Part shown: positions 16,715-30,285 of the stretch, piece by piece
Layout of the letters: every line of letters begins with the position of its first letter
How positions within the stretch are numbered: position 1 is the first letter of the stretch
IMG/VR virus record: IMGVR_UViG_3300037297_000059
Span: 1 to 40,866 of that record
DNA from: a virus
Direction: 5' to 3' (one strand)
Length of the DNA stretch: 40,866 nt
Made by a program: the position numbers and the translations under genes
The notes under the pieces: model-generated
What the model was told of the DNA's origin: nothing
What the model saw: the letters and a program-made list of their open reading frames with translations, nothing else
Database searches by the model: none

Positions 16715-16786
16715 TTGCCGTAATCGGATTTGAACCGATATTTCCATCCTATATAGGCCAGCGACTCCCAAATTGTCTATACGGCG
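16715..16786 (-). tRNA. tRNA-like element, anticodon arm not standard
   Basis: Acceptor CGCCGTA/TACGGCA (six pairs, C-A at the top), D stem GAC/GTC with GGG in the loop and T arm ATCGG-TTCAAAT-CCGAT with its perfect stem are all good. The middle reads CTGGCCTATATAGGATGG, which gives only an interrupted stem with a 6-base TATATA loop, so I cannot assign an anticodon. It may be a tRNA pseudogene or a tRNA-mimicking domain of the surrounding RNA. Confidence 0.4.
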
Positions 16787-19663: not shown

Positions 19664-19828
19664 TTAATCTGGATATGGTTCGTAATCATTTGCATTAACC
19701 CAGATCCATTCTTCTTCTAAATCTTGTATTATATATACTAAAAAATAAAAACCTTTTTCTTTTTCTACCCATTGAAAAGCATATACTTTTAAAACTTCAC
19801 CTGTCTTTTTATTTTTAATTTTAAACAT
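19664..19828 (-). CDS. Small hypothetical protein
   Basis: 54 aa: MFKIKNKKTGEVLKVYAFQW, then acidic and Trp-rich (EEEWIWVNANDYEPYPD). A KNKKTGEVxxV beta hairpin followed by EPY is common in small phage proteins of the YopX/DUF type but too short for a call. Its ATG overlaps the stop of the 20187-19828 gene (TAATG). Confidence 0.6.
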   Translation of the reverse strand: MFKIKNKKTGEVLKVYAFQWVEKEKGFYFLVYIIQDLEEEWIWVNANDYEPYPD

Positions 19829-20187
19829 TAATATAATTTCATTCCTTCCCTTTCTAATTGTTTATACTCCTTTTCTTTATCTTTTTCTTTTTTAAAATAA
19901 TTAATTTTGTAATAATCTTCAAGATAAATTTCTACATCTTTTCTTTTCAATTGTTTTGGGATTTCTAAAACTTCAATAATTTCATTTTCCCTAAAGGTAA
20001 CACCAACATTATTTAATTTTTTCAATACAATGTCCATGTCATCAAGTAATTTTATCATTTTTGGAGTAAATTCTTTTTTTTTATCTATTGGAACATTATC
20101 ATTTTCTAACCAGACATAACCTTTTTGAAATTTAACCAACAATTCATTATATTGCATTGATAAATTAATTATTTCAATTATTCGCAT
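19828..20187 (-). CDS. Hypothetical helical protein
   Basis: 119 aa. MRIIEIINLSMQYNELLVKF, central KMIKLLDDMDIVLKKLNNVG and a Lys/Glu-rich C-terminal helix. GGAGG precedes ATG 20187. Its leader contains the two hairpins with complementary loops (20212-20304), so its expression is probably attenuated or RNA-regulated. First gene after the origin region. Family not recognised. Confidence 0.55.
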   Translation of the reverse strand: MRIIEIINLSMQYNELLVKFQKGYVWLENDNVPIDKKKEFTPKMIKLLDDMDIVLKKLNNVGVTFRENEIIEVLEIPKQLKRKDVEIYLEDYYKINYFKKEKDKEKEYKQLEREGMKLY

Positions 20188-20211
20188 TATTTACCTCCAT
20201 ATAAAAAGAAA

Positions 20212-20304
20212 TCCTATAAATCCAGTTTGCCAGCTCGAATTTATAGGACTTCTATACTATTTTTATATAGTTTGTTTTGGCTGGCAATCAAAACAAACTA
20301 TATA
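20212..20304 (-). promoter_or_regulatory. Two-hairpin leader with complementary loops
   Basis: Hairpin A (20212-20248): 10-bp stem TCCTATAAAT/ATTTATAGGA, 17-base loop containing TTGCCAGC. Hairpin B (20264-20304): perfect 16-bp stem, 9-base loop GCTGGCAAT. The loops can form eight uninterrupted pairs (TTGCCAGC with GCTGGCAA). On the minus strand hairpin A is followed by TTTCTTTTTAT and then the ribosome binding site of the 20187 gene, like an attenuator. A kissing complex could control termination, translation or replication. Confidence 0.7.
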
Positions 20305-20354
20305 ATTTATTAAAATTATAACATATTATTATAATTTTACAATAAAAATTTTAT

Positions 20355-20680
20355 TTGCGGGAATTTGCGGGAATTTGCGGGATACTTGCGGTATAATTGC
20401 GGGTCAAAAAAAATTATTCCGAAGCCAGTAATATTAATACTCACAAGATTTTTTGCAGGTCAGCGGGAATATTTTTTCATAATATAATAATATATTATTA
20501 TTTGTACATATGTATATATAAAACATAAACAAATGTATAAATAAATATATATATATATATATATATTATTCCCGCTTTACCCGCAAATGTTTATAAGTTA
20601 GTAATAGTCTATGTTTGGTTATGCAGGTATACAAATGTTTATCCCGCATTTAACCCGCAAATTTAAAAATACTCCCGCAA
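20355..20680. other. Putative replication origin
   Basis: Five TTGCGGG-type repeats at 20355-20403 (starts 20355, 20365, 20375, 20386, 20397; the fourth is TTGCGGT) are spaced 10-11 bases, one helical turn. Inverted copies (CCCGC/CCCGCAA) occur at 20571, 20579, 20643, 20654 and 20674. Between them is an AT-rich stretch with a run of about ten AT units (20546-20569). Iterons around an easily melted segment, next to the primase-helicase gene, fit an origin. No ORF in this 510-base gap. Confidence 0.65.
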
Positions 20681-20698
20681 ATAAAATAAAAAACCTTT

Positions 20699-23056
20699 TT
20701 AAAAAGGTTCTTTATTAATATCAATATTATTTATTGGTAAATCTTCTATTTCTTCAAATCTTTTACTTACAAAATATTTATTTTGTTTTTTATGTTTATC
20801 GTAAATCATTTGTATATTTAATTTTTTCAGTTCTCGACCTATAGTTAATTTATTTAATAAAACTTGATTTGCTGGAAGTTCTTTAAATATTTCGCCAGCG
20901 GTTAACCATTCGCCTTTTCCTTCCTGTGGATAAAGATTCCAAGTTTCCTCTATTAATAAAATCTTTTCAGGTTTATTAAGATATTGATTATTAATTTCAT
21001 TAATTTTTTTCACTTCTTCAATATCAAATTTATAACTTATTCCTTTTAAATAAAGGGAATACATATAGCCCCACAGCATATCTATGTCAATTTTAATATC
21101 TTTATCAAAGTCAATACAATCTATTGTAATATACCGCCTTGTTCCTGTTAAATCTTTTAAAAATTCATTATCATTAGTTGTAGCTGTCAAACATACGCGC
21201 CTTTTAACTGTTATTGCCGCGGCTCCATAAGGTAATCTAAATTTGTCAGATGGTGAAGTTATAAAATTTTTCATTGCTTCCTGATCAGATTTTTTAAAAG
21301 TTGTTGCAATTTCGCCCATTTCAATTAATATATTTGAAACGGTTTCCATTATTGAATCTTTATTATTTACATCTAAACTTCTACCAGTTAAAAAATATTT
21401 ATATTTTAATTTGTCAGGTAATAAATTTTGTAACCAGGTTGTTTTACCTATAAATTGAGGTCCTTTTAAAACTAACATATAATCACTATTTATCATTGAT
21501 TCATCGGAAGAACAACCAACATTAATCATCTGTAATAAAAATTTACCTAAAAATTTATTTTTATATTCACTATCACTAATAATAGTATCAGCTAATTTAA
21601 GAAAAATATCTTTATCAGGATTTTTTAAATAATATTTATAAGCATCTTTTAAATATTCTTCCCAGGGATTGTATTTATTTTTTCTTCCAATTAAAGTTAA
21701 ATTTGACAATATTCTTTTATCAGTTGTTTTAAGGTCCTGAATTAAACATAAATTTTCAATATGGGATCTAACATTTTCCAAAACATCATAATACTTTCCA
21801 TCTTTGAAAACTTCATATTCCATTTTTATCATATTATATTTTATCTGAAAATTATAATGTTGTAACAAGCATTCAAAATTTTGTTCAACTGGTAAAACTG
21901 TCATTTTATCAATTTTTGGTTTTTCATCACCTGAATATTCTGTAAAATACTCAGATAATCTCATTGTTTCATTTTCATCTAAATGATTTTTAAATTTTAC
22001 ATATACATAATCAGGATCCCATTTAACATTTTTTAAATCTAAGTTATCCACAGATTTATTCATAGGTTGTTGACTGATTTTGGGTTTACTGATATTATTA
22101 CTATTATAGTTATGGTTGTAAATAACTGTTAAATTCCTTAATGCATTGTCAATAGTATTATCTAAATAAGTTGGATGTTTTGTAAATTTAGCCCTATTTC
22201 TAGGACTATTTTTTATTATTCTTTTAATTTGATTATGGTCCTGGGTATAAAATGCCAACATATTTATGAAAGCCAAATCACTTTCACTATTACCAGGTTT
22301 ACCAGGTTCATTATACAAAGATTGAAATTTATTTCCGTTTTTTGCTTTGGAAGCAATTTCAATTATTTTATAATCATCTAAATACATAGATGCTGCATTA
22401 TGTTTTTCTTGATTATTATTAGTATTATTTGTATAAATATTTTTCATATAGGCCGCGTAAACTTCCTTAATTTTCATATTAGTATTAATATTAAAATTAG
22501 AATAATACATATTCCCGGTAAATGTACAATATCGATTATCTTTAGTACTGTATATTTCAAGGCCTTTATGGGTATTTTTATTTTTATAATGAGTATTTTT
22601 AAATTTTTCTCTAAATTCATCGAAAGATCCATTATCTTTTATTATAATTCTTATACCTTCCATTCCTGGTGAAATTTCCGTATAAGAATTTAATAAATTA
22701 ATAATTTTTAATGCTTCCTTAGAAACATTATTAACATGTCCTTTTATACAATGATCAATATCAACAAATATAAAGTCGGTTCCTGGAAGCATTAACCCAA
22801 TACCACCTATTATTATACCTTTAGAATTTTTTGTATTTTTAAATTTTAATTGTTGCTGTTTTGTAAACTGTAAATTTCCCCAGGTTTGACTATTATTTGA
22901 CATTGCATTCCCAAGTGTTTTTGGATTGATAGGCGGTTTCGTAAATTTCCCATTTTCAAGTTGTTTCAATCCCCATAAAACCCAATTATTATGAGGATTG
23001 TTTCCAAAAAGCTTTTCTATATTGTGGTAATTAACATCAAAATTATAATTTTGCAT
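20699..23056 (-). CDS. Primase-helicase (PrimPol-like N-terminus, VirE/D5-like helicase)
   Basis: 785 aa from ATG 23056, eight bases after GGAG. N-terminal primase-polymerase-like domain (about 10-215) with the metal-binding FVDIDH at about 95-100 and KGLEIYSTKDNRYCTFTGN. The C-terminal half is a VapE/VirE SF3-like ATPase: Walker A GPQFIGKTTW (about 528-537), Walker B ILIEMGEI and the TATTNDNEFLKDLTGTRRY signature (about 630-648). Such fusions prime and unwind at the origin and, in some phages, also polymerise. It is the only replicase-type gene here and faces the putative origin. Confidence 0.85.
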   Translation of the reverse strand: MQNYNFDVNYHNIEKLFGNNPHNNWVLWGLKQLENGKFTKPPINPKTLGNAMSNNSQTWGNLQFTKQQQLKFKNTKNSKGIIIGGIGLMLPGTDFIFVDIDHCIKGHVNNVSKEALKIINLLNSYTEISPGMEGIRIIIKDNGSFDEFREKFKNTHYKNKNTHKGLEIYSTKDNRYCTFTGNMYYSNFNINTNMKIKEVYAAYMKNIYTNNTNNNQEKHNAASMYLDDYKIIEIASKAKNGNKFQSLYNEPGKPGNSESDLAFINMLAFYTQDHNQIKRIIKNSPRNRAKFTKHPTYLDNTIDNALRNLTVIYNHNYNSNNISKPKISQQPMNKSVDNLDLKNVKWDPDYVYVKFKNHLDENETMRLSEYFTEYSGDEKPKIDKMTVLPVEQNFECLLQHYNFQIKYNMIKMEYEVFKDGKYYDVLENVRSHIENLCLIQDLKTTDKRILSNLTLIGRKNKYNPWEEYLKDAYKYYLKNPDKDIFLKLADTIISDSEYKNKFLGKFLLQMINVGCSSDESMINSDYMLVLKGPQFIGKTTWLQNLLPDKLKYKYFLTGRSLDVNNKDSIMETVSNILIEMGEIATTFKKSDQEAMKNFITSPSDKFRLPYGAAAITVKRRVCLTATTNDNEFLKDLTGTRRYITIDCIDFDKDIKIDIDMLWGYMYSLYLKGISYKFDIEEVKKINEINNQYLNKPEKILLIEETWNLYPQEGKGEWLTAGEIFKELPANQVLLNKLTIGRELKKLNIQMIYDKHKKQNKYFVSKRFEEIEDLPINNIDINKEPF

Positions 23057-28516: not shown

Positions 28517-29188
28517 TTATAAATCATATTCAATTGCTTGAACAATTAATTTTGTTGTCTGTGAATAGTTAACTATTTTATTTCCAGCATCAGAAGCAGA
28601 AAACCGTAAATACCCATAAATATAATCATTTTCTGTTACATCTACAAAAGAAAAACAATTTAAAGTTCTCCATGGTTCAGTTAAATATACTCCTGCCGAA
28701 TTGGTATCTCTTCTTGGGAAAATAGAATAAGAAATTGCAGAACTATTTATATATATATATATAGCTGAATATGCATTTTCAGTATTACAATTTGCCCATA
28801 CTTGCAACCCAATTTTAACACGCTTAATTCCTGGCCCAATTTTAACACCATAATTATTAAGTGAAAAATTTGCTCCACTTTTTTCGGATTCTGAATCAAA
28901 CTGTATCTTTGTTGCATTTGTATTTGTAATAAATTGTTCAGTTGTTTTTAACAGTTCAATACAATCAATTGTAGGATTCCCAATTATACCAACCGCATAA
29001 AATTGATTTTCAATTTTGATTAATGTTAATTTAGATCCAACTGTTACACCAAATAAATTTCCAGATGGAACTACATTAATTTCATCATCAGCATCAAATA
29101 ATTTTACGCCAAGAGGTTTTATAGTTGTTACTATTCCTGTATAAAAATCTTTTTTTACTTCTTTCGGATTTAAAAAATTCTTTATCAT
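28517..29188 (-). CDS. Distal tail / baseplate protein
   Basis: 223 aa. N-terminal beta barrel (TGIVTTIKPLGVKLFDADDE, VPSGNLFGVTVGSKLTLIKI) like an OB-type insert, then a jelly-roll-like C-terminal part (about 105-223) rich in beta strands and aromatic residues, similar to lectin-like tips. Overlaps the upstream gene by 4 bases and is the last gene of the late operon. Receptor-binding or baseplate upper-fibre role is inferred from position. Confidence 0.6.
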   Translation of the reverse strand: MIKNFLNPKEVKKDFYTGIVTTIKPLGVKLFDADDEINVVPSGNLFGVTVGSKLTLIKIENQFYAVGIIGNPTIDCIELLKTTEQFITNTNATKIQFDSESEKSGANFSLNNYGVKIGPGIKRVKIGLQVWANCNTENAYSAIYIYINSSAISYSIFPRRDTNSAGVYLTEPWRTLNCFSFVDVTENDYIYGYLRFSASDAGNKIVNYSQTTKLIVQAIEYDL

Positions 29189-30285
29189 GGAGTCGTCACC
29201 CTCCTTATAATACTTTCTACATTTGCATTAATATCTAATTGCCAGGACATTGATTCAATTTTATATGTTGCTGATTTTTCCATTAATTTATTAATAAATG
29301 TGTAATGGTCGCCCTGGTATGGAAGGCCGTCATTTTCGCGCGAAGTAACAAAACCATGCGAAAAACTTAACGGTTCCTCTAGTTCTAAAGCTTTTCGAAT
29401 TTCTCTTTTTGCTCTTAAGTTTAAATATTCTTGGCTTGACGCTTCGGAAAATAATCTTTTATCAACATATCTATTAATATTTGAATAACTAAATGGATGA
29501 TCCTCAATCCCTTCATCTTCCATAGACCAAGATTTATATAAATTTGCACTCGTTGAAAGTTCATTAGCAATAAGAATTACACGATTAAACATTCCGGCAT
29601 AATCTTTATTTTCAAAAATATCATTAGTATAAATACATTCTTCATCATCTACAAAAGTATATGTAATATTTTTTACATCACTCCACGGTATAGCTCTATA
29701 TACACCATTTCCACTAACCCAAATTGGATAATAATTAATCATCTTTAATAATGAATTAATGATTTCTAATTTACTTGTTCCAACAAGCCAAACTTTATCG
29801 TAAGGTAATGTTTCGTCACATGGTTCTATGTTATATATAACCCATGATCCAATAGTATCAAGAACTGTTTTTATTGCTGTGGTTATTACGGTACCGCTTG
29901 AAATAGTATAACTAGCATCAACTTTATTATCGTCAAGAGCTTTTAAAAGTCCATAACCTAAAATATTCCGTGTAATGCTGTCATCTTCTTCCATATGACG
30001 CGGTGGCGTTAGGGGCATATATACACCTAACGGAAACTCATAACCAGATAAGCAATAATAAATTTTAATTCTATCAGATACATAATTTATATCAATACTA
30101 TCATTTAATTTAATTTTGCAATTTCCTATTGTTTTTCTACTAAAATTAATATTAATATTAGACTCTTTTGCATTCACATAATTAGTTATCCAGTCACTAT
30201 GTATGTATTCACCACCTGATAATTCTAATAATTCAAATTTCCATGATTCATATCTATTCCCTGTAAATATACTATTATCCACCAT
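29185..30285 (-). CDS. Baseplate hub / tail-associated protein (Tal-like)
   Basis: 366 aa from ATG 30285 (MVDNSIFTGNRYESWKFELL), seven bases after GGAG. The layout resembles the gp27/gp44-like hub N-terminus of siphovirus tail-associated proteins: FSRKTIGNCKIKLNDSID, RIKIYYCLSGYEFPLGVYMP, then repeated beta segments and a C-terminal LRAKREIRKALELEEPLSFSH-like part. It follows the distal tail protein as usual. No peptidase domain is fused, so it is a short, structural form. Confidence 0.65.
   Translation of the reverse strand: MVDNSIFTGNRYESWKFELLELSGGEYIHSDWITNYVNAKESNININFSRKTIGNCKIKLNDSIDINYVSDRIKIYYCLSGYEFPLGVYMPLTPPRHMEEDDSITRNILGYGLLKALDDNKVDASYTISSGTVITTAIKTVLDTIGSWVIYNIEPCDETLPYDKVWLVGTSKLEIINSLLKMINYYPIWVSGNGVYRAIPWSDVKNITYTFVDDEECIYTNDIFENKDYAGMFNRVILIANELSTSANLYKSWSMEDEGIEDHPFSYSNINRYVDKRLFSEASSQEYLNLRAKREIRKALELEEPLSFSHGFVTSRENDGLPYQGDHYTFINKLMEKSATYKIESMSWQLDINANVESIIRRVTTP

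Follow-up and report, generated by a model that had tools for sequence, protein, structure and literature searches.

A putative 5' leader RNA with covarying kissing loops ahead of unrelated phage accessory genes

In the control of plasmid copy number, as by RNAI and RNAII of ColE1, a sense and an antisense RNA kiss loop to loop at the origin, and these loops vary between relatives. The PeSL cassettes of T4-like phages are not known to contain a kissing pair. They are units of a promoter and a stem-loop tied to gene shuffling, as described in the available parts of papers citing them (PMC4503421, PMC3950731). In the guanidine-IV riboswitch (GGAM-1 RNA), the terminator stem enters a loop pseudoknot with the preceding hairpin and termination is controlled; highly conserved loop bases bind guanidine, the RNA stands upstream of sugE and of transporter genes, and the authors propose that the two kissing hairpins could stretch the linker and so keep the outer terminator pairs open (PMC7736828, in the portion of the text available). 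The put RNA of phage HK022, about 70 nt with two hairpins that open a phage transcript from an early promoter, is self-acting through sequence-specific binding of RNA polymerase, over 10 kb, its antitermination at distant terminators involving the zinc-binding domain of the polymerase, and the accessible part of the paper does not mention kissing (PMC9378689). Kissing loops, some of them supported by covariation, also occur in the phage and bacterial RNAs GOLLD, ROOL and OLE, which according to the sections available are large multimer-forming RNAs and not leaders (PMC12286853).

The element described here comprises two hairpins behind a promoter, in about 105 nt, and its nearest described case for mechanism is the guanidine-IV riboswitch, the likeness being in layout: a hairpin loop is joined to that of a terminator-like stem, ahead of a gene start. 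Whereas guanidine-IV has conserved ligand-binding loop bases, the loops of the element vary and mainly their pairing is kept, and it precedes phage accessory genes instead of sugE or transporter genes. It shares loop-loop kissing, with loops differing among relatives, with ColE1 RNAI/RNAII, but both its loops lie in one transcript, before various genes. The element lacks a defining feature of guanidine-IV and also one of the plasmid copy-control RNAs. Like the PeSL units, it repeats a promoter and stem-loop before different genes and, as far as the citing papers describe those cassettes, seems to resemble them in its apparent travel. It differs from GOLLD, ROOL and OLE in size and as a leader, and it gave no Rfam match in the sources scanned.

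The window, that is the whole stretch of DNA analysed, is a virus record of 40,866 bases with tailed-phage genes (terminase, portal, capsid, tail tape-measure). On its minus strand a promoter-like site is followed, after 9 nt, by hairpin H1, a 9-nt linker, hairpin H2, a U-run, GGAGG and an ATG at 20187. The element has origin-like repeats on one side and a gene of 119 amino acids on the other:

20315–20342, minus strand: sigma-70-like promoter-like site TTGTAA-16-TATAAT, with TG ahead of the second hexamer (consensus scan)
20263–20305, minus strand: hairpin H1, perfect 17-bp stem with 9-nt loop, predicted 5' end of the transcript
20280–20287, minus strand: kissing sequence of the H1 loop, UUGCCAGC in RNA (GCTGGCAA as written in the window)
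20254–20262, minus strand: linker between H1 and H2, 9 nt
20207–20253, minus strand: hairpin H2, 17 pairs including one G-U and one U-G, 13-nt loop
20227–20234, minus strand: kissing sequence of the H2 loop, GCUGGCAA in RNA (TTGCCAGC as written in the window)
20201–20211, minus strand: U-rich run starting within the 3' arm of H2 and continuing past it, terminator-like (from sequence)
20194–20198, minus strand: ribosome binding site GGAGG (from sequence)
19828–20187, minus strand: downstream gene, 119 aa (P0001), without Pfam or PHROG match

The original prediction had placed a 10-bp and a perfect 16-bp hairpin side by side at this position. Both are present, the left one with the 10 bp claimed (a core of 10 perfect Watson-Crick pairs with a 17-nt loop, 20212–20248), which on the minus strand extends to 17 pairs through a G-U near the base and a U-G near the top, and the stem of the right one is actually a perfect 17 bp. 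The predicted match between the loops was recovered as an exact 8-base complement of TTGCCAGC (20227–20234) and GCTGGCAA (20280–20287). A U-run and a ribosome binding site, said to follow the first hairpin, do follow H2, but on the minus strand only, and the hairpins do not flank the putative origin as proposed but adjoin origin-like repeats on one side. The minus strand folds over 125 nt at -38.4 kcal/mol (z -6.6). Among the 26 hairpin pairs of the window with stems of at least 8 bp and at most 150 nt apart, one has 8 complementary loop bases, and none has them when 100 first-order Markov versions of the window are counted in the same way. With looser limits (stem at least 7 bp, at most 200 nt apart), another 8-base loop match appears at 29117–29364; therefore loop matching alone is not the proof, whereas covariation is.

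In total, 22 full copies of the element were found in 20 records. Besides the window these are 18 IMG/VR contigs and one contig binned with a Spirochaetes MAG (L135), which is phage-like and carries portal, minor capsid and tape-measure genes. Further copies beyond an initial DNA search were reached by a pattern of the H1 stem, then a pattern of H2 and then covariance models, and the first pattern to yield new copies constrained the H1 stem alone, leaving the loops and H2 free. Scans with H1-stem patterns gave 8 matches, 7 of them copies, and another 6, one of them a copy; the H2 pattern gave 22 stretches, comprising 12 full copies, one solitary H2 and 9 chance matches. In one pattern scan, the 40 matches without model support had 3–7 kiss pairs, whereas the 7 supported by the model all had 8. 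Two other pattern scans yielded no additional member, and a search of 149 genomes of the phylum Spirochaetes with model R2 under strict filters returned the known copy only. Among annotated phages, the 3.3-kb locus had no DNA match; a 150-base query matched 35 records, where the 20 matches listed cover only query positions 1–59 (promoter region and start of H1) and were taken as chance. Plasmids were searched with the primase protein as query. No Rfam 15 family reached gathering level for the element, either in the window or at 17 loci that carry other copies, and the element itself at E ≤ 5 gave weak matches only, far under gathering scores. No guanidine riboswitch was matched by Rfam in the sources scanned, with a release (15) that may lack a guanidine-IV model. 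No description of the element was found in the titles and abstract openings searched in the literature, which included few subscription papers. Close to one copy, at L038 2682–2757, lies a RAGATH-18 RNA (66.7 bits).

The 22 copies contain 14 distinct loop pairs, each keeping 7–8 standard pairs without a shift of register. These 8-base registers were picked by eye and checked by script against the DNA for 21 of the copies, the one in L073 being read separately. Summed over the 14 loop pairs, 106 of 112 positions form Watson-Crick pairs, to be compared with a mean of 72.9 and a maximum of 94 in 100,000 permuted partner sets. The proposal of kissing loops is therefore supported by covariation over 14 distinct pairs: as the loops change among relatives their complementarity is retained, to a level that permuted partners never reach. 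An alignment of 9 rows had the kiss paired at 94.4%, with two-sided changes at 5 of the 8 pairs. In an alignment of 17 rows, which was built on both stems without using the kiss in the fitting, the kiss was paired in 96.3% of the cells with two-sided changes at 6 of 8 pairs, and the H1 and H2 stems were paired at 95.8% and 97.5%, respectively, against 31–44% for the whole structure in slid controls. Near-duplicates (L035, L073, L119, L120, L122) were dropped from these counts, and the E-value limit of the alignment was set so that the antisense match of L040 is excluded. Few columns of the 17 rows are constant and most loop positions vary. The H1 sequence is even wholly replaceable, its 9-nt loop and stem of about 17 pairs being kept (L045, L117, L118, L125), and the computed energy of the kiss duplex lies between -11.7 and -13.9 kcal/mol in all 17 rows.

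G-U occupies 40 cells against 3 for A-C, and the minus-strand RNA is therefore the selected molecule. The same ratio argues against the element acting as DNA (an operator, a recombination site or a single-strand origin), as does its fixed position between promoter and gene before many different genes; the inverted repeats do adjoin origin-like repeats in the window, but we consider this explanation scarcely credible. Taken together, these comparisons of sequence give good support to the fold, the strand, the kiss and a leader position in cis.

Of 16 upstream regions, 11 have their best promoter-like site 6–9 nt ahead of H1, whereas shuffled sequences gave 0.24 such regions on average and never more than 2; in the remaining five the distance was 14, 17, 44, 46 and 52 nt. 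With this spacing, H1 is expected at the extreme 5' end of the RNA. Its main role could then be to protect that end, H1 leaving few or no 5' bases unpaired and the kiss fastening H1 and H2 into one block against RppH and 5' exonucleases, with the U-run serving only as a ribosome standby or spacer. This is the main rival to attenuation, since RppH of B. subtilis requires at least two unpaired 5' bases, according to the available part of PMC3997798, and it agrees with H1 starting near the expected transcription start in 11 of 16 regions and with an H1 stem of near-constant length despite complete change of sequence. A simple 5' hairpin would however be enough for protection, with neither a covarying kiss nor the U-run at the foot of H2 present in all 17 rows, and in L045 some 50 nt separate H1 from the best promoter. 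We regard protection as the main role as rather unlikely, although both activities may operate jointly.

All 17 rows have 5–7 U per 8 bases at the end of H2, and the longest T run of the tail was 3–6 in all 21 copies examined (only 3 in L115 and L073). H2 has the stem and the immediate U-run of an intrinsic terminator and departs from the textbook form in the G+C-rich stem and short loop, its stems being mostly A-U rich and its loops long (13–15 nt); a terminator scan of the window did not call it. In one record (G016; L123 1530–1600), a solitary H2 with a U-run stands 11 nt past a stop codon, where a terminator would be expected; its loop is the same as the GUCGGGAA type, H1 is absent, and no partner H1 occurs in that record. 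Behind the full element, a start codon with a ribosome binding site follows after 9–26 nt in 17 of the 22 copies and lies 68 nt off in two; for the other three, no gene was detected by the script. The original prediction had seen an RNA device for attenuation or for replication control. Attenuation is plausible from these sequence features, because H2 is terminator-like in every one of the 17 rows and in most copies is followed by a ribosome binding site; no support was obtained for replication or copy-number control.

Because H2 has the form of a terminator and lies ahead of the ribosome binding site, attenuation is the leading idea, and we give an about even chance to an attenuator-like 5' leader RNA acting in cis, in which the terminator-like H2 is docked by the 5'-terminal H1. 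Transcription would begin at H1 or within a few bases of it, so that the 17-bp hairpin would be the 5' end of the mRNA, and the loop of the emerging H2 would pair with the H1 loop over 7–8 bases. As H1 is complete ahead of H2, the kiss could form before the polymerase reaches the U-run. H2 and the U-run would then present the form of an intrinsic terminator immediately ahead of the ribosome binding site; a fraction of the transcripts would stop at the U-run, with read-through into the gene tuned by the H1–H2 kiss. The same fold, leaving few or no free 5' bases, would also be expected to give the mRNA a longer life. Termination at H2, and an influence of the kiss on termination or on the lifetime of the mRNA, in either direction, are inferred.

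A rough strain model indicates that the kiss stays favourable with the linkers seen, and that in window-like copies the outer pairs of H1 open and not those of H2; antitermination by a stretched linker is therefore unsupported for these copies. The linker measures 7–9 nt in 9 of 17 rows, a length at which two 17-bp stems could kiss straight within one molecule only under strain, and which would suit a kiss between molecules, either in leader dimers or from the H1 of one copy to the H2 of another, the loops acting as private addresses. The loop pairs do differ in the two phages that have two copies each, and multimers through kissing loops are known for other phage RNAs (PMC12286853, in the sections available). 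But the two copies of G018 match at 6 of 8 bases across copies, so these codes are not clean; the solitary H2 has no free partner in its own record, and the spacing of promoter and gene favours a role in cis. An intermolecular kiss appears improbable to us. The two hairpins in about 100 nt directly behind a phage promoter are also reminiscent of putL (available part of PMC9378689), and the leader might, as an RNA-only antiterminator like HK022 put, bind its own polymerase and pass later terminators. The sequence-specific binding of polymerase by put, as described in that part of the paper, stands against this, as here stems and loops vary and mainly pairing is kept, and so does the absence of the word "kissing" from the text available; this explanation is very unlikely.

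The genes led by the element encode Dam-type methylases, an N6/N4 methylase, Rha regulators, a Nudix protein, an ERCC4 nuclease, a DUF6948 protein and a polysaccharide-synthesis enzyme, the others being unnamed small proteins, and the sequences present the element as a promoter-leader cassette ahead of unrelated phage accessory genes. At least 8 of the 21 copies examined stand directly behind the gene for the terminase large subunit, which was assigned by Pfam for L014 and by PHROGs for L118/L119 and L045; the C-terminus of the L014 terminase recurs in L036, L037, L041, L043 and L073, and L117 and L121 have an L045-like C-terminus, yet without a terminase match. In L121, the ORF ahead of the element (301–1461) has a weak match to intein splicing (Pfam, 26.9 bits, below cut-off). 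In L135, the element precedes a glycan-synthesis gene (Polysacc_synt_2) with a DegT aminotransferase gene next to it; these glycan genes are perhaps an accessory operon that changes the surface.

Related primases were found at seven loci and relatives of the 119-aa protein at four, three of them in the same records. At these loci, the element behind the primase is absent. A DNA search of eight whole records found the element at other sites in four, with the loops altered together. The related records of L003, L004 and L009 have no match. The orthologues of the 119-aa gene in L005, L006, L007 and L010 have other promoter-leaders that are seemingly unstructured; since they stand behind different leaders, the leader is exchangeable. 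Upstream of these orthologues recurs a second type of promoter-leader, ATCATAGTCAAGGAACATTAA and then a ribosome binding site, also seemingly unstructured; it precedes several genes in L005, L006, L007 and L010 and is also present at about 4640–4700 of L006.

Control of replication or copy number was rejected: the copies precede unrelated accessory genes, and the origin-like regions of related phages are without the element. In the window, the origin-like region (20350–20700) lies behind a VapE / NrS-1-type primase-helicase and has TTGCGGG repeats in opposite orientation on either side of an AT-rich core. Downstream of the primase gene, L003–L010 have the same layout with other repeat words, such as TTGCGAAAG in L007, ACGGGTA in L005 and ATTACA in L010, and it is possible that primase and origin change together. 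Elsewhere in the window, at 16715–16786, a weak third tRNA-like match (33.3 bits, Rfam) lies between two tRNA genes, where ARAGORN made no call.

The same device with varying matched loops stands before other accessory genes and therefore looks like a transferable part for gene control. We tentatively suggest, as a possible but doubtful extension, a mobile switch without ligand, in which a kissing code of 8 bases gates an intrinsic terminator and may be rewritten at will as long as the loops stay matched. If this is true, each accessory gene would have its own self-addressed attenuator, and several could work side by side in one phage. The element adds a structured RNA family, unmatched by Rfam 15 in the sources scanned, and the phage accessory genes behind it include those for DNA methylases and for regulators of the Rha type. 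Should the kiss gate the terminator, the element would be a compact natural switch without ligand; it would offer 14 natural loop codes and a clean way to study the action of a loop-loop contact on polymerase.
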